A DNA stretch of 64,000 nt from Bacteroidota bacterium (GTDB lineage: Bacteria; Bacteroidota; Bacteroidia; Palsa-965), in contig JADBYT010000015.1 in NCBI GenBank assembly GCA_020402865.1, positions 186,001 through 250,000 on the forward strand, in the 5' to 3' direction. Position numbers and translations under genes: made by a program. Under the pieces are notes generated by a model. The model did no database searches. It was not told the DNA's origin and was given only the letters and a program-made list of their open reading frames with translations. Below are positions 1,118 through 7,409 of this stretch, in pieces. Each line of letters starts with the position of its first letter. Positions within the stretch are counted from its first letter, which is position 1.

Positions 1118-2371
1118 ATGCACACCTGGCACCACGCACTTCGCCAATTTCAACTCGGGCTGCTTCTGCTCGCTGCGGTGTGCATGCCTTTCGGCTTTTT
1201 TCAGGGGCCGCTGGCCGGTTTTCTGGCGCTGAGCTGGCTGGCCGATCTGCGCTGGAAACAGAAGTGGAACGACCTGCGCAATTCGGGCTGGTTCTGGGCC
1301 ATGTTTTTCTTCTACGGCCTTTATGCGCTTTCGCTTTTGTGGACAGACCACACCGACATGGGCAGCATGAGCCTTCAGGTAAAACTCGGCATGTTTATTT
1401 ATCCGCTGGTGCTGGCCGGCATCCGTCTCAACGAAAAGCAAACGCGCCGCATCATTGCTGCATTTCTGCTGGGTCTGCTGGCGGCAGGGCTTTTTATGCT
1501 GGGGCGCGCCACGCTCATCTGGATGAACGAACACCGCAACGCTTTTTTTTATCAGGCATTTACCGAGCGTATGGTGCATCCGGGCTACTTAGCCATGTAT
1601 TACTGCCTCGGCATTGCCCTGCTGTTTCATGCGGTTTTGCTGCAGGATGCCGGACGTGGCTGGAAAATTGGTGCAGCCCTGCTTTGCGGTTTTTACGTGC
1701 TCATTTTGCTGCTGCTGGCTTCAAAGCTCGGGTTGCTTGCACTGGCCTTGCTGGTGGCGGGCTATGTGGTGTATGCCATTATCCGTTTCCGCCGCTGGAT
1801 GGTGGGTGTGGCGGCGCTGCTGCTGCTGCTGGGCGGCTTTGTGGCGGCTTATAAGTTCATGCCCGGCCTGCGCGAACGGATTACCAACCTTACCGCCGCA
1901 CTCAATACCAAAGAACCCATTGACCCGGCTGAAGTGGAAAGCAACCGTGTGCGCCTGCTCATCTGGAATGCCGATGTGACTATTATTTCCAGCAATCCGC
2001 TTGGCGTGGGCGCCGGCGATGTGCAGTATGCGCTGGAACAGGAATACGCCATACGCGGCATGACCGGCGCGGGCGAGAAACACCTCAACGCACACAGCCA
2101 GTTTTTTCAAACCACCATTGCCGCCGGCTGGGCCGGACTGCTGGCGCTGCTCATTATTGTGCTGGGGCCGGTGCTCTGGGGCATCCGGGTGCGCTACGGC
2201 TTTGCGGTTATCTTCGGCTTGCTGTTTTTTGTAAACTGCCTGCCCGAGTCGATGCTTGAAGTACAGGCAGGAACTTTATTCTTCGGCTTTTTTTATTCGC
2301 TATTTTTGCTCTCAGCCAGCCGCAACTGTCTTACACCGTTGAAAGCACCGCCGCTGGCCTGGCCGCTATGA
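1118..2371 (+). CDS. O-antigen ligase-like / Wzy-C family membrane protein
   Basis: A polytopic membrane protein of 417 aa with about ten hydrophobic segments. Between the last membrane segments, at about residues 280-330, is the periplasmic loop typical of the WaaL/Wzy_C family (NRVRLLIWNADV, then NPLGVGAGD and an H in LNAHSQFFQ). The family joins polysaccharide to lipid A-core or polymerises repeat units at the periplasmic face. The frame opens at TTG 1082, but ATG 1118 (MHTWHHALRQ) is preferred. Its stop overlaps the next gene's start (ATGA at 2368), so the two are translationally coupled. Ligase and polymerase cannot be told apart here. Confidence 0.8.
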   Translation: MHTWHHALRQFQLGLLLLAAVCMPFGFFQGPLAGFLALSWLADLRWKQKWNDLRNSGWFWAMFFFYGLYALSLLWTDHTDMGSMSLQVKLGMFIYPLVLAGIRLNEKQTRRIIAAFLLGLLAAGLFMLGRATLIWMNEHRNAFFYQAFTERMVHPGYLAMYYCLGIALLFHAVLLQDAGRGWKIGAALLCGFYVLILLLLASKLGLLALALLVAGYVVYAIIRFRRWMVGVAALLLLLGGFVAAYKFMPGLRERITNLTAALNTKEPIDPAEVESNRVRLLIWNADVTIISSNPLGVGAGDVQYALEQEYAIRGMTGAGEKHLNAHSQFFQTTIAAGWAGLLALLIIVLGPVLWGIRVRYGFAVIFGLLFFVNCLPESMLEVQAGTLFFGFFYSLFLLSASRNCLTPLKAPPLAWPL

Positions 2372-3585
2372 TTCCTTTTTCTCCTCCGCGCATCGATCAG
2401 CGCATTATCGACGAAGTAACCGCCGCCCTGCAATCGGGCTGGATTACCACCGGACCACGTACCAAGCTGTTTGAAAAAAAGCTTTCGGAATACACCGGTG
2501 CGCCCGCCACACTTTGCCTCAACTCGGCCACGGCCGGGCTTGAGGTGATTCTGCGCTGGTATGGCGTGGGGCCCGGCGATGAAGTCATTCTGCCTGCCTA
2601 CACCTACGCCGCTACTGCCAATGTGGTTATTCACTGCGGCGCCACGCCGGTGTTTGTAGATGTGCGTGCCGACGATTTCTGCATCGACGTGGAGGCGGCA
2701 GCCAACGCCATTACGCCGCGCACCAAAGTAATTATGCCGGTGGATATTGGCGGCTTTCCGGCCGATTATACCGCGCTTACTGCACTGGCCGAAAGCCGCC
2801 GCAGCCAGTTTGCAGCCGCCACCGATGCGCAGCAACAGCTGGGCCGCATACTCATTCTCGGCGATGCGGCGCATTCCATTGGTGCATTCCTGAACGGCAT
2901 TCCGGCCGGGCGGCATTGCGACATCAGCTGCTTTTCCTTTCACGCTGTGAAAAACCTCACCACGGCCGAGGGCGGCAGCGTAAACCTCAATCTGCCTGCG
3001 CCGTTTGATAACGAGGCGCTTTACAAATGGCTCTGCATGTACACACTGCACGGCCAGACCAAAGATGCGCTGGCCAAAATGCAGAAAGGCAACTGGCGCT
3101 ACGATATTGTGGAGGCCGGCTACAAATGCAACATGACCGACCTGCAGGCCGCCATCGGCCTTGTGGAGCTTGAACGCTACACCACCGATACATTGGTGCG
3201 CCGCCGCGAAATTTTTGACCGTTATATAAATGCCTTCAGCCAGTACAGCTGGGCCCAGCTGCCGGTGTTTGAACGCGGCAGCACCGTATCCTCGTATCAC
3301 TTGTTTTTGCTGCGTATCAAAGGCATTACCGAGGCGCAGCGCGATGCCATCATCCAGCGCATTTTCGATGCGGATGTGTCGGTGAATGTGCATTATGTGC
3401 CCGTGCCCATGATGACGTTCTACAAAAACAAAGGCTACAACGTACACGATTATCCGGTGACGTATGACAACTATGCCCGCGAAATTTCGCTGCCCGTGTA
3501 TTACGATTTAACCAACGAACAGGTGGACACTGTGGTGCGTGCCGTGGCCAATGCCGTAGCCGCCGAAACCGGAATACATGGCTAA
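2368..3585 (+). CDS. DegT/DnrJ/EryC1/StrS-family sugar aminotransferase
   Basis: A PLP-dependent aminotransferase of 405 aa, the family that makes amino sugars (or nucleotide-sugar amines) for surface glycans. Visible features are the N-terminal SGWITTGP, the cofactor-pocket GDAAHS at about 165-170 (Asp166) and the Schiff-base lysine in FHAVKNLTTAEGG at about Lys195. The length is usual for the family. It overlaps the ligase-like gene by 4 bp and the downstream sugar transferase by 8 bp, a tight operon. The exact sugar substrate cannot be read from sequence. Confidence 0.92.
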   Translation: MIPFSPPRIDQRIIDEVTAALQSGWITTGPRTKLFEKKLSEYTGAPATLCLNSATAGLEVILRWYGVGPGDEVILPAYTYAATANVVIHCGATPVFVDVRADDFCIDVEAAANAITPRTKVIMPVDIGGFPADYTALTALAESRRSQFAAATDAQQQLGRILILGDAAHSIGAFLNGIPAGRHCDISCFSFHAVKNLTTAEGGSVNLNLPAPFDNEALYKWLCMYTLHGQTKDALAKMQKGNWRYDIVEAGYKCNMTDLQAAIGLVELERYTTDTLVRRREIFDRYINAFSQYSWAQLPVFERGSTVSSYHLFLLRIKGITEAQRDAIIQRIFDADVSVNVHYVPVPMMTFYKNKGYNVHDYPVTYDNYAREISLPVYYDLTNEQVDTVVRAVANAVAAETGIHG

Positions 3586-4168
3586 GCGCGTGTTTGATCT
3601 TGTGGCTTCATTCATTGGTTTGCTCATTTTGCTGCCGGTGTTGCTGGGTCTTGCGCTCTGGGTGATGCTCGACAGCCGTGGCGGCATTTTTTACCGGCAG
3701 GTGCGTGTAGGCAAGGGCGGAGTGGATTTCAAACTCTGGAAATTCCGCACCATGCACCCCGATGCCGACAAGCGCGGCCTGCTCACCGTAGGCGGCCGCG
3801 ACCCGCGCATTACCCGCGCCGGCTACTACCTGCGCAAATACAAACTCGATGAACTGCCGCAACTGCTCAACGTCCTCACCGGCGATATGAGCCTCGTAGG
3901 CCCGCGCCCCGAAGTACGCAAATACGTGAGCATGTACACACCGCAACAAATGCGTGTGCTGGATGTACGCCCCGGCATTACCGACTATGCGTCTATCGAA
4001 TATTCCAACGAAAACGAATTACTCGCACAAGCAGCCGATCCGGAGCGCACGTATATTGAGGAGGTAATGCCCGCCAAGCTGGCGCTCAATGAAAAGTACA
4101 TTGCCGAGCAGGGGTTGATGACGGATTTGCGGATTATTTGGATGACGGTGCGGAAGATTGTTTCTTGA
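3578..4168 (+). CDS. Bacterial sugar transferase (polyprenyl-phosphate phosphoglycosyltransferase)
   Basis: A 196-aa monotopic phosphoglycosyltransferase of the WbaP/PglC core type. It should transfer a sugar-1-phosphate from a nucleotide sugar to undecaprenyl phosphate, the first step of repeat-unit assembly. There is one N-terminal hydrophobic segment (about 8-30), then [23 protein letters not shown] and MSLVGPRPE, the family signatures. The length matches the minimal PglC form without extra membrane domains. Its last 187 bp before the final codons (3975-4161) are duplicated at 5001-5187, but this copy is intact. The 3' end overlaps a convergent 70-aa gene. Confidence 0.93.
3975..4161. repeat. 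Direct repeat, copy 1 (3' end of the sugar transferase gene)
   Basis: A 187-bp segment of the sugar transferase gene recurs without gaps at 5001-5187 with about five substitutions. It marks the left edge of an islet holding two minus-strand genes. Identity ends at AAGATTGT, a few codons before the host stop. Confidence 0.92.
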
Positions 4169-4346
4169 TTACTGAAACACCTGCGGTTTTACGTGTAGAT
4201 AATTTTTTCCCCATTTTAACCCTCTTGCCTCGCTTAGCCTTTAATTCCTGAATGAATTTGCTGATAGCAAGTTGTTCATCGCTTGTCAGCGGATTGTTTT
4301 GTCCGCCGATGAAATCCACGTCTAATTCTTTTGTTCGGTGTTTCAT
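4134..4346 (-). CDS. Small charged protein paired with an acetyltransferase-like gene
   Basis: A 70-aa basic protein with the segment DVDFIGGQNNPLTSDEQ then AISKFIQELKAKRGKR. Small proteins with a similar start and basic tail are found beside acetyltransferase-like genes in Bacteroidota; that association is from memory and the function is unknown. It starts 4 bp inside the upstream 193-aa gene (ATGA overlap at 4343-4346), implying co-translation. Its last codons run antisense into the sugar transferase 3' end, so its C-terminus was formed at the islet junction. An antitoxin or accessory role is possible but unproven. Confidence 0.65.
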   Translation of the reverse strand: MKHRTKELDVDFIGGQNNPLTSDEQLAISKFIQELKAKRGKRVKMGKKLSTRKTAGVSVIKKQSSAPSSK

Positions 4347-4924
4347 TTTTGGAAATATTTGTTAGTCAATTTTAAAGCAGAAATAGTATCTATAATCATT
4401 ATTCGGCCACCAACGTGTATAGCTCCTAAACTATCAGTATAGTGTTGGATTAATTGTGTCTTTGAGAAAAAAGATACATTCCCTTCGTGACCTCTTTGGA
4501 AAGAAAGTTTGCAAGCAAAGGCCACTAAGTTTCCTGGAACACCTGCGTACATTTTATTTTTCCCTTTGTTAAACGGAGCACTTTCAATAAGGTGTATATA
4601 AACATGATCGGTTTTGACTTCCAAACTTATTAAGCCTTGAATGATTAGTTCATTATTTACAATTGTTAGTTTGTAAACTTCTCGTTCAGGTTGTTTGTAT
4701 TCATATTTCCAATCAAACTGCCAGTTGTTCTTTTTCGTGATATTCTTTAGGTCGTGAAGTGAAACTACTGAAATATCAGTGGCAAAACTATCACCTGTTA
4801 CCACATTTTCAATGGAGTTTGTCAATTTGTCAACCTCAAAATCTAATCCCTTGAAAGTATGTTTTTTCACATAGCTAATATACGCAATAAATACTTTACG
4901 GACAAGCAAATCAGCCAGTCTCAA
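4343..4924 (-). CDS. GNAT-like acetyltransferase fold protein (start uncertain)
   Basis: About 193 aa if the TTG at 4924 is used. An in-frame stop lies immediately upstream and there is no early ATG, so the start could also be the GTG at about 4870, or the 5' end may be truncated. The C-terminal half resembles the acetyl-CoA binding core of GNAT enzymes: VPGNLVAFACKLS, then RGHEGNVSFFSK, then HYTDSLGAIHVGGRIMIID. The substrate is unknown. It is followed by the overlapping 70-aa gene, and together they form the cargo of an islet bounded by sugar-transferase 3' duplications. The GNAT call is a motif judgement. Confidence 0.6.
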   Translation of the reverse strand: MRLADLLVRKVFIAYISYVKKHTFKGLDFEVDKLTNSIENVVTGDSFATDISVVSLHDLKNITKKNNWQFDWKYEYKQPEREVYKLTIVNNELIIQGLISLEVKTDHVYIHLIESAPFNKGKNKMYAGVPGNLVAFACKLSFQRGHEGNVSFFSKTQLIQHYTDSLGAIHVGGRIMIIDTISALKLTNKYFQK

Positions 4925-5000
4925 CTATTTTCACCAATACAGTGACACTTAAATTTTGACTAAAGACGAAGCTCGCAGAAGTTTAAATAATCAGACTCGG

Positions 5001-5187
5001 GCATTACCGTCAATGCGTCTATCGAATATTCCAACGAAAACGAATTACTCGCACAATCAGCCGATCCGGAGCGCACGTATATTGAGGAGGTAATGCCCGC
5101 CAAGCTGGCGCTCAATGAAAAGTACATTGCCGAGCAGGGGGGGATGACGGATTTGCGGATTATTTGGATGACGGTGCGGAAGATTGT
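5001..5187 (+). pseudogene. Detached 3' fragment of the sugar transferase gene (repeat copy 2)
   Basis: A headless duplicate of 3975-4161. It would encode the tail from about [13 protein letters not shown] to [15 protein letters not shown], but with no start codon, no catalytic region and a divergent end. Substitutions include AAGCAG to AATCAG and GGTTGATG to GGGGGATG. It forms the right boundary of the GNAT-like islet and the immediate left neighbour of the AT-rich gene at 5212. Confidence 0.9.
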
Positions 5188-5211
5188 GGGGGGAGGTTGT
5201 ATATTTATAAT

Positions 5212-6405
5212 ATGAAAGAAAATATTTTAGAAAATTGGTATAATTCTTTAAAGTGGGATTCCTCCAATTTAAATCCTTATCGATCTTTGGATAGGCAACA
5301 ACTTGATTTTATTTATCATATTTTTCTTAGTTTCTATGGAGACAATTATTTTGATATTAAATCAAATAATTTCACTTCTGAAAATAATTCTTATTGGATA
5401 TATTTTTTGTTAATTAATAATCAAAAAAATTCAAGTTTTCAGGCATTAAAAGATATCGCTGAAAATATCGACTATGCTATAAGACTTGGTGGAGACTTCC
5501 TGAAAAGGGTAAATAGTTTTAAGAAAAATCAAAGTCAAATGAGAGATTTTCTTTTTGAAATATTTATATATAAATTATTAGATAAGAGTGGTATTTACAA
5601 TATTAAAAATAATTATATAAATAATCGTCAACGAGAAGGTGTTTTAAGAATTAATGGTATTGATTATTTATTCGAATGTCGTAAAGTGTATGTAATAAAT
5701 AAAAGTCAAATAGACTTTAGGAAAAGACTTCTTGATCAGATATATCTGAATTCTGTGAAATGCAAAAAAGGTATAGGCTATTTATTAACAGTAAGTTTTA
5801 AAAATCAGCTTATTAATCACAAAGAATTTTTAGTATTCGAAAAAAAAATCAGTCAATTCTATAGTAAATTAAATAATTTAGAGTCAGTTAGTAGGATTGA
5901 TTACCATGATGAATCTAATGAAGGAGTATTGAAAGTTATTGATTATAACGAGACTGATGCCATAAATATACACTCAGATAATTCGATACAAGTACGCCTA
6001 GTTGTTAGACCTCCTGAAAAACAAATTGAAAATGTGTTAGGTAACTACTCACATGAATTAAGCTCAAATTTTCAAATTTCACAAAATGACATTTATAAAA
6101 AAGTAAAGGAGGTTTTGAAAGAAAAGAAAAAGCAGATGAAAAACAGTAATTATTCTAATAATATAATATTTTTAGATTTTGAAAGCGTTGTTGGTATTGA
6201 TCTTTCATTATTTTCAAGTCAAAGAAAATGGGATGAAGAAAGGTTAAATGATATTCGAAGGTCATTAAATATGGATCATACTATTTGTTTTATTATTAGA
6301 GATTATACTGGGAATAAATATGAATCTCATGTACTTATAATTAGTTCTGTTAGTGATCCTTTATTTAAAAAGGCTCTTACTGATATGTTTGAATCTCAGA
6401 AATAG
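5212..6405 (+). CDS. AT-rich orphan protein, possible nuclease-like fold
   Basis: A protein of about 397 aa starting at ATG 5212 (MKENILENWY); the frame itself opens 16 codons earlier inside duplicated sequence. Codon use is extremely A/T-rich and rich in Asn, Ile, Lys and Tyr, unlike every neighbour, which points to recent transfer. At about residues 155-200 there is GVLRINGIDYLFECRKVY followed by FRKRLLDQIY. Acidic and basic residues on adjacent strands recall PD-(D/E)xK nucleases, but the motif is not canonical (ECRK). There is no signal peptide. It could be a restriction-like or defence protein; no family is recognised with confidence. Confidence 0.7.
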   Translation: MKENILENWYNSLKWDSSNLNPYRSLDRQQLDFIYHIFLSFYGDNYFDIKSNNFTSENNSYWIYFLLINNQKNSSFQALKDIAENIDYAIRLGGDFLKRVNSFKKNQSQMRDFLFEIFIYKLLDKSGIYNIKNNYINNRQREGVLRINGIDYLFECRKVYVINKSQIDFRKRLLDQIYLNSVKCKKGIGYLLTVSFKNQLINHKEFLVFEKKISQFYSKLNNLESVSRIDYHDESNEGVLKVIDYNETDAINIHSDNSIQVRLVVRPPEKQIENVLGNYSHELSSNFQISQNDIYKKVKEVLKEKKKQMKNSNYSNNIIFLDFESVVGIDLSLFSSQRKWDEERLNDIRRSLNMDHTICFIIRDYTGNKYESHVLIISSVSDPLFKKALTDMFESQK

Positions 6406-6630
6406 CTGATTCTACTTAAAATAAATATTCAGCCCATGAAATATTAAAATTCAGAATTCACACTTGTGATTATTTTTTTTTGATGTGAGGTTATAAGGCA
6501 TTTATTAATAGTTAATTGAACACCACTTCAGTTTCACCAAAAATCAATTCCCCCCAAACCATTAATTAACTTCGGTTAAGGAAATTAAAAATTCCCTCCC
6601 GTAAGTTTGCACCCAAACTTACAACCAACC

Positions 6631-7257
6631 ATGCAACCACAATCCCGCATCCTGCTTAGCGCAATCATTCTTTTCAGCATCCTTGTTTCATCCTGCTCCA
6701 ACACCCAAACTCCGCCTGCGGCCCAAACCGACACCCTCCGGCAACCTGCCGACAACCCGGAAATAAAACGCATGGCCGAACTCGATCAGCAGATGCGGAT
6801 TGAAGATAAACCCGGCCTTGAAGAGCAGGACAGCAAACACCGCAAACGCATTTTTGAACTTTTGGCAAACGGGCAGGTGATTACGCCGAAAGATAAATTC
6901 AGGGCGGCGCTCATTTTGCAGCATACAGGGCTTGAATACTGCAACAACACCTTGAAAAGCCTGAGTGCCGAAAATTATTTGCTTGCCTACCAGCTCAGCA
7001 AAAGTGCGGGCGATGCAGGCGATACCGCTGCGCTGTATTTTTCGGCACTGGCGCTCGACCGGTATCTTTCGCTTACCGAAGGTTACCAGAAATACGGCAC
7101 GCAGCAGTTTTACGACGAGAAAACCGACGCCATGCTTTGGTCGCCGATTGACAGCACCACTACCGATGCCGAGCGCGCAAAGTACGGCATTAAGCCGCTG
7201 GCCGAGCTGCTGAAGGAAGCACCCATGAAACCCTGGCCCAAACCGGCAGGCAGGTAA
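6631..7257 (+). CDS. DUF6624-like lipoprotein
   Basis: A protein of about 208 aa starting at ATG 6631 (MQPQSRILL). The lipobox ILVSSCS predicts a lipid-anchored periplasmic or outer-membrane protein. The body has the arrangement typical of DUF6624: MAELDQQMR, then HRKRIFELLANG, AALILQHTG, SAGDAGDTAALYFSALALDR and QKYGTQ. No biochemical role is established for the family. TAAGTTTG at 6602-6609 could be the -7 promoter element. It is a stand-alone gene between the AT-rich islet and a large protease gene. Confidence 0.8.
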   Translation: MQPQSRILLSAIILFSILVSSCSNTQTPPAAQTDTLRQPADNPEIKRMAELDQQMRIEDKPGLEEQDSKHRKRIFELLANGQVITPKDKFRAALILQHTGLEYCNNTLKSLSAENYLLAYQLSKSAGDAGDTAALYFSALALDRYLSLTEGYQKYGTQQFYDEKTDAMLWSPIDSTTTDAERAKYGIKPLAELLKEAPMKPWPKPAGR

Positions 7258-7409
7258 TTTGTGCCTGTTTTTGTGGAAGGTTTTGATACGTGTACACCTG
7301 TTTTTTCGCACAAACGGGTGAAATTCCTGTATTTACAAGCATTTTAATGGGCATACGGCATTTAACCCGTTGAAACACGTATCTTGAAACTCGTTTCAAT
7401 ACCTGACCA

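Follow-up and report, generated by a model that had tools for sequence, protein, structure and literature searches.

Directly behind a displaced copy of the end of a sugar-transferase gene, in the genome of a Bacteroidota bacterium, lies a very AT-rich gene, and between the two copies of that end sits a small islet of two further genes. This arrangement raises two questions: what does the AT-rich gene encode, and did it arrive together with the islet? We addressed both by comparing composition, repeats, relatives and predicted structure in a 64-kb window (i.e., the whole stretch of DNA that was analysed) and in collections of related and unrelated genomes. The features discussed below are listed in Table 1.

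A gene of foreign composition beside a duplicated transferase tail

The reading frame of the AT-rich gene stays open for 397 codons on the forward strand of the window, from an ATG at 5212 to a stop codon at 6403-6405, and the longest open frame across 1000 base shuffles of 5188-6600 had 191 codons. We placed the start at this ATG and not at the upstream TTG of the ORF listing (5164), as it is with the former that the N-terminus of a relative (L132) aligns. The gene has a GC content of 0.250 (0.34, 0.23 and 0.18 at the first, second and third codon positions), whereas the transferase reaches 0.555 and the larger of the islet genes, the GNAT-like one, 0.335. Its third-position value is the lowest among 51 non-overlapping window ORFs of at least 150 aa (mean of the other 50: 0.53, SD 0.08; z -4.5), in agreement with the preliminary description of this locus, which found the composition to be unlike that of the neighbours. 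We conclude that this is a real gene, foreign by composition. A scan for sigma-70-type promoters was uninformative (8 sites, with an average of 13.5 in shuffled sequence).

On one side the gene is flanked by an exopolysaccharide cluster (O-antigen ligase, DegT aminotransferase and sugar transferase), and on the other by a gene with a weak DUF6624 match followed by a subtilase with a Por secretion tail. This tail, like the record titles of the islet's relatives (see below), points to a host that is probably a member of the Bacteroidota. Together with the islet pair, these genes were the seven neighbours covered by our Pfam scan, in which the DUF6624 match was below threshold and the islet pair had no match. 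A methyltransferase was not detected among the seven, meaning that the adjacent cognate methylase by which a Type II restriction-modification system is recognised was not found here.

Table 1 Features of the locus (window coordinates) and the evidence used to define them
Feature	Position	Strand	Basis
Bacterial sugar transferase (Bac_transf), intact copy	3578..4168	+	Pfam PF02397, E=2e-58; eight relatives
Left copy of the 188-bp target duplication (transferase tail)	3974..4161	+	Repeat alignment
Small basic islet ORF, 70 aa; last codons enter the transferase tail	4134..4346	-	Relatives behind the GNAT-like gene elsewhere
838-bp islet between the repeat copies	4162..4999		Edges set by the repeat
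GNAT-like islet gene, 193 aa	4343..4924	-	Relatives in phylum genomes and genome contigs
Right copy of the 188-bp target duplication (displaced, changed)	5000..5187	+	Repeat alignment
AT-rich gene, 397 aa, rare family, putative PD-(D/E)XK-like core	5212..6405	+	ORF, composition, relatives, model
Putative nuclease core, first half, residues 107-159 (helix with E116; strands with E142 and E155)	5530..5688	+	Alignment, model
E155-C156-R157-K158 motif	5674..5685	+	Sequence reading, alignment
Putative core, second half, residues 291-394 (helix with K305/Q308; strand N316-x-I-x-F-x-D322-x-E324)	6082..6393	+	Alignment, model

The duplicated gene end that had been pointed out in the preliminary description is a direct repeat of 188 bp, the two copies being 97.3% identical, which ends 7 nt short of the end of the transferase gene. 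The left copy belongs to the intact transferase gene: its end agrees to about one residue with the ends of eight transferase relatives (65-72% identical), and it retains the D and Y of a 10-residue stretch from which the right copy has lost both. In each of these relatives the transferase was matched once, as would be expected of an empty site with a single copy of the target, although the comparison is made at only 65-72% identity. Just past the repeat, the right copy reads GGGGGGAGG and the left copy TTCTTGATT; the right copy also carries a T-to-G pair at 5141-5142. The junction between repeat and gene may have mutated or slipped, or may be an assembly artefact. As a side observation, three of the seven runs of 6-7 G or C in the window lie here, one within the right tail copy (5137-5143) and one at either end of the AT-rich segment (5188-5193 and 6550-6555). 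The change of T (and C) to G in the right tail copy could reflect slippage or a read-end artefact.

The AT-rich gene does begin directly behind the displaced tail, as first described, its start lying 24 nt past the end of the second copy. The duplication stops at 5187, ahead of the start of the gene at 5212; the gene is therefore not part of the inserted unit, and the suggestion that it came with the islet is not supported. The other suggestion, that its arrival just preceded that of the islet, is consistent with the simplest history but is not proved by it. In this history the AT-rich gene probably stood beside the transferase first, and a separate islet of two genes later inserted into the end of the transferase gene, an event that would have duplicated 188 bp of the tail and left a changed copy just upstream of the AT-rich gene. 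The duplicated tail appears to be the footprint of an islet that duplicates its landing site upon insertion. That gene and islet instead arrived as a single insertion is very improbable; the gene does stand immediately past the right repeat of the islet and both have lower GC than the host genes, but the target duplication stops ahead of the gene, their GC contents are unequal (0.25 vs 0.335), and phmmer detected no relative of the AT-rich gene among ORFs of at least 60 aa in the collected loci, which included islet loci together with flanks of up to 5 kb. What links the gene to the islet is adjacency, not common origin. We also considered the AT-rich gene itself as an insertion with target duplication and did not adopt this reading, the tail occurring only twice in 2300-7400.

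Relatives, conserved residues and predicted fold of the AT-rich gene

Among 395 genomes searched at class level, two contained a nearly full-length relative of the protein, 32% and 27% identical: one of 428 aa (G491; E=1.6e-60), aligned over residues 2-369 of 397, and one of 421 aa (G567; E=2.2e-39), aligned over residues 25-389. Since these relatives exist, the earlier label of orphan needs correction. The family is patchy, as a profile of the three sequences, searched against 42 genomes of the relatives' order, matched the two relatives themselves and none of the other 40. The same profile found nothing in 244 nor in 316 further genomes, an empty result that shows little given that these sets held no known positive. 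Single-protein searches found no relative in 58 near-relative genomes, in the 394 other genomes of a first phylum sample, or in viral contigs, genome contigs, plasmids and phages, and none was found by viral scans with alignment A2 or with each relative, or by plasmid and phage searches with each relative. Several weak rows were dropped as chance: one in a ClpC-like frame among the 58 near relatives, five in the phylum sample (four in frames that we take, from their sequence, to be XerD-like, and one in another frame) and three at class level (G504, G625 and G676). The ORF in G625, which by eye lies beside an apparent C5 methylase, did not align with the family by hhalign.

Seven residues are invariant across the three aligned sequences (R111, D112, F115, E116, E155, C156 and K158), and the motif common to them is [FL]FE followed by [E/D]142...E155-C-[R/K]157-K158, with E/D/E in column 142 and R/R/K in column 157. 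Thus one relative has a canonical ECK, and the canonical K position is R in the other two members, followed by the invariant K158. The preliminary description had noted an EC-x-K-like block near residue 170; the block is present as E155-C156-R157-K158, but it reaches residue 171 only when counted from the TTG, and the position of the canonical K, two after the E, is occupied by R. In the second half of the protein, the aligned positions include L302, K305, Q308 and N316-x-I318-x-F320-x-D322-x-E324.

Consistent with the earlier remark that no family was clear, library searches gave no convincing match. Among Pfam, NCBIfam, PADLOC and PHROGs, all libraries whose profiles cover described families only, none yielded a nuclease profile match to the AT-rich gene, and the two relatives had no PD-(D/E)XK family match in Pfam or PADLOC. 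Nor was there a convincing match among PDB sequences, either for the protein or for the three-sequence profile (best E 0.12). The best Pfam row for the AT-rich gene was DUF3199 (E=0.0019), and a fragment gave a row to DDE_Tnp_1_7 (E=0.023), both of which lead away from a nuclease; these and a row to Mor were set aside, all being below cut-offs.

An AlphaFold2 model built with the three aligned sequences had low confidence (pTM 0.45, mean pLDDT 47; block means 44 to 71). Its better parts, residues 107-159 and 291-394, are predicted to form a helix-strands-helix-strand arrangement. When this model was compared with known structures using VIA-align 2, acetyl-CoA-carboxylase domains came out on top (Z up to 8.8), filling 15 of the 50 rows shown with one kind of protein. 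The nuclease rows included XisH (2okf, Z 8.2; 2inb, Z 7.7), BsmI (Z 7.4), Bax1 (6.4), Cdn1 (6.1) and McrBC (5.9), with further rows to PaqCI, Cas4, SfsA, Can1/Can2, Hjc, PspGI, the R2 endonuclease and viral cap-snatching nucleases. Altogether we take 26 of the 50 rows (26 of 35 outside acetyl-CoA-carboxylase) to be PD-(D/E)XK proteins, most of them with Z under 8, which is the tool's stated background. Restriction enzymes, XisH, BsmI, McrC and Hjc all belong to this superfamily. Foldseek returned nothing at E<=0.001 (best E 0.092 in PDB and 0.021 in BFVD). A single-sequence model was discarded as useless (pLDDT 35), and among its 50 rows shown none was recognised as PD-(D/E)XK.

The remote-homology and structure searches thus gave weak PD-(D/E)XK-like structural rows, while no profile matched and the highest scores went to acetyl-CoA-carboxylase. 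We interpret this as a weak resemblance of a low-confidence model to PD-(D/E)XK nucleases. The acidic motif and the model may be coincidental and the family may have another function altogether, a possibility that we consider unlikely; it would account for the low model confidence, the acetyl-CoA-carboxylase rows at the top, the lack of a nuclease profile match and the R in place of a catalytic K in two of three members, but it sits less well with acidic positions that are kept in three diverged sequences, and with nuclease rows that span many solved families and appear only once the relatives are added.

The surroundings of the two relatives differ. In G491, the start of the relative falls within the final 11 nt of a Type IIG restriction-modification gene that encodes 948 aa (PADLOC REase_MTase_IIG, 1.1e-192; Eco57I, N6_Mtase, TaqI_C and HSDR_N domains). 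Among the plasmid relatives of this enzyme, an overlapping downstream gene was listed in none of the eight inspected (of 74 records, in a PLSDB gene table that is incomplete); the partnership therefore stands on one genome and may be incidental. In G567, the relative lies on a mobile-looking 14.4-kb contig with RadC, AAA, tyrosine (phage) integrase and C5-methylase-like genes. This second setting raises the alternative that the protein is PD-(D/E)XK-like but serves a mobile element that has since been lost, in excision control, resolution or plasmid upkeep (cf. XisH and Hjc), and not in defence. XisH was the best nuclease-like structural row and Hjc rows were present, but the Pfam scan of seven window neighbours found no integrase, relaxase or phage gene and the other relative overlaps a restriction-modification gene, and we regard a mobile-element role as the less likely one.

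On balance, a nuclease is the best reading, held with moderate confidence because of the motif, the order of structural elements and the one restriction-modification neighbour. Specifically, we favour, with a probability of roughly 0.55, a solitary, horizontally acquired gene of a rare family that most likely encodes a PD-(D/E)XK nuclease of restriction type or otherwise directed against foreign DNA, and that probably stood beside the transferase before the islet inserted. In such a protein, metal binding and DNA cleavage would fall to E116 (in the first helix), E142 and E155-x-R157/K158, and the closing helix and strand would be set apart from the active-site strand by a long insertion (approximately residues 160-290). 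The restriction-type nuclease proposed in the preliminary description is partly supported, by a three-sequence motif, a weak structural comparison and one relative that overlaps a Type IIG gene; it gains no profile match, and the top structural rows are unrelated to it. The fold, metal use, DNA cutting, the role in defence and the order of events are inferred. Having no match in the PADLOC library (2023), this nuclease-like family offers a concrete subject for assays of phage restriction.

Spread of the two-gene islet and its probable mode of insertion

Islets of this kind are widespread. At E<=0.01, 35 of 395 phylum genomes contain a match to the GNAT-like gene (its own genome and some weak rows included), and relatives are encoded in at least 538 genome-contig stretches; among the matches listed, islet relatives are mostly in records titled Bacteroidota. 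The name GNAT comes solely from the annotation of two remote Nostoc plasmid relatives, and in a PADLOC search that covered the AT-rich gene (no match) and both islet genes, the GNAT-like gene gave one weak row (‘Effector’, endonuclease; E=0.0046). In 8 other loci identified by tblastn, and in further loci among the fetched set, the small ORF again follows the GNAT-like gene; gene order and size suggest that the pair may be a toxin-antitoxin system. The genome under study also contains a second, diverged GNAT-like relative (G000:C11:105769-106221; 32% identical, E=1.5e-17).

To see how the islet is bounded elsewhere, we took the best 80 of the at least 538 loci, of which 67 had enough flanking sequence and 13 were left out for short flanks. 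Counting any repeat, direct repeats were present at both islet edges in 28 of the 67 loci and lacking in 39. The same edge rule was satisfied by none of 264 swapped flank pairs and by none of 42 fake positions placed at a greater distance from the islet. On a looser count, 32 of 67 real islets had a repeat, which was best at the edges in 21; in the corresponding control without a position rule, a repeat of at least 30 bp occurred at 7 of 90 fake positions, 2 of which would satisfy the edge rule. Inverted repeats were found at the edges of a single locus out of 67. In the 21 loci with the best repeat at the edges, repeats ranged from 27 to 270 bp and were 77 to 100% identical, and no two of these repeats, that of the window locus included, matched each other by blastn at E<=1e-3. 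Cases from other collections had repeats of 193 bp (L031), 150 bp (L038) and 137 bp (L049), and among 18 loci gathered earlier (the present one included) five had flanking repeats of at least 137 bp and one (L035) a repeat of 30 bp. L036, from these earlier loci, and L124 lie on contigs of equal length (73291 bases) with the same repeat and were treated as one locus. Direct repeats at both edges that are specific to each locus are what marks an insertion with long target duplication, and they mark the islet, not the AT-rich gene. No shared sequence was seen by eye at the islet ends, and no transposase was recognised in the pair.

Two further observations concern the variability of the unit. 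In seven loci (L062, L063, L083, L089, L100, L114 and L121) the best repeats enclose 1.5-1.95 kb and not approximately 0.8 kb, and extra cargo may therefore travel inside. Near-identical small ORFs lie between different repeats in L036/L124 (270 bp, at the edges) and L129 (576 bp, further out), a pattern suggestive of independent insertions.

Relation to known systems

Our literature search, carried out in one library with chosen terms, recognised no paper on the GNAT-like islet. We put forward tentatively, at slightly less than even odds, that the islet is a self-sufficient two-gene mobile unit, with no recognised transposase or common ends, that spreads across Bacteroidota by long, variable target duplications, and that the AT-rich gene represents a PD-(D/E)XK-like nuclease family that has not been modelled before, of which it would be the first member to be described. 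The broader novelty lies in the islet family rather than in the AT-rich gene, and the analysis of the islet weighs more than the nuclease candidate. If units of two genes without a transposase do move by long target duplication, small genes other than those of restriction-modification systems would have a general route of mobility. The many edge repeats across 21 loci, with their range of lengths and identities, make the mechanism testable by strain comparison.

Insertion with long target duplication was reportedly described by Nobusato et al. in 2000. In passages of PMC3031569 and PMC3874152, it is described for restriction-modification genes, with target duplications in the order of 100 bp according to a passage of the latter, a review. 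The islet resembles these cases in having long, variable, locus-specific direct repeats that directly flank a small gene unit, and differs from them in its content, which is a GNAT-like gene and a small basic ORF, mostly in Bacteroidota-titled records, instead of restriction-modification genes.

The AT-rich gene can be compared with two systems. With Type IIG restriction-modification (Eco57I-like) it shares the one relative that overlaps such a gene by 11 nt; unlike in that system, no methyltransferase was found beside the window gene, and the plasmid relatives inspected list no partner (8 of 8). With the PD-(D/E)XK superfamily it may share the order of elements that a low-confidence model predicts, the placing of acidic residues on one helix (the first) and on two strands, and the E-x-[R/K] motif, and there are weak structural matches; it differs in having no convincing match to a curated profile, in the R at the canonical K position in two of three members, and in the long insertion that would lie between the active-site strand and the closing helix.
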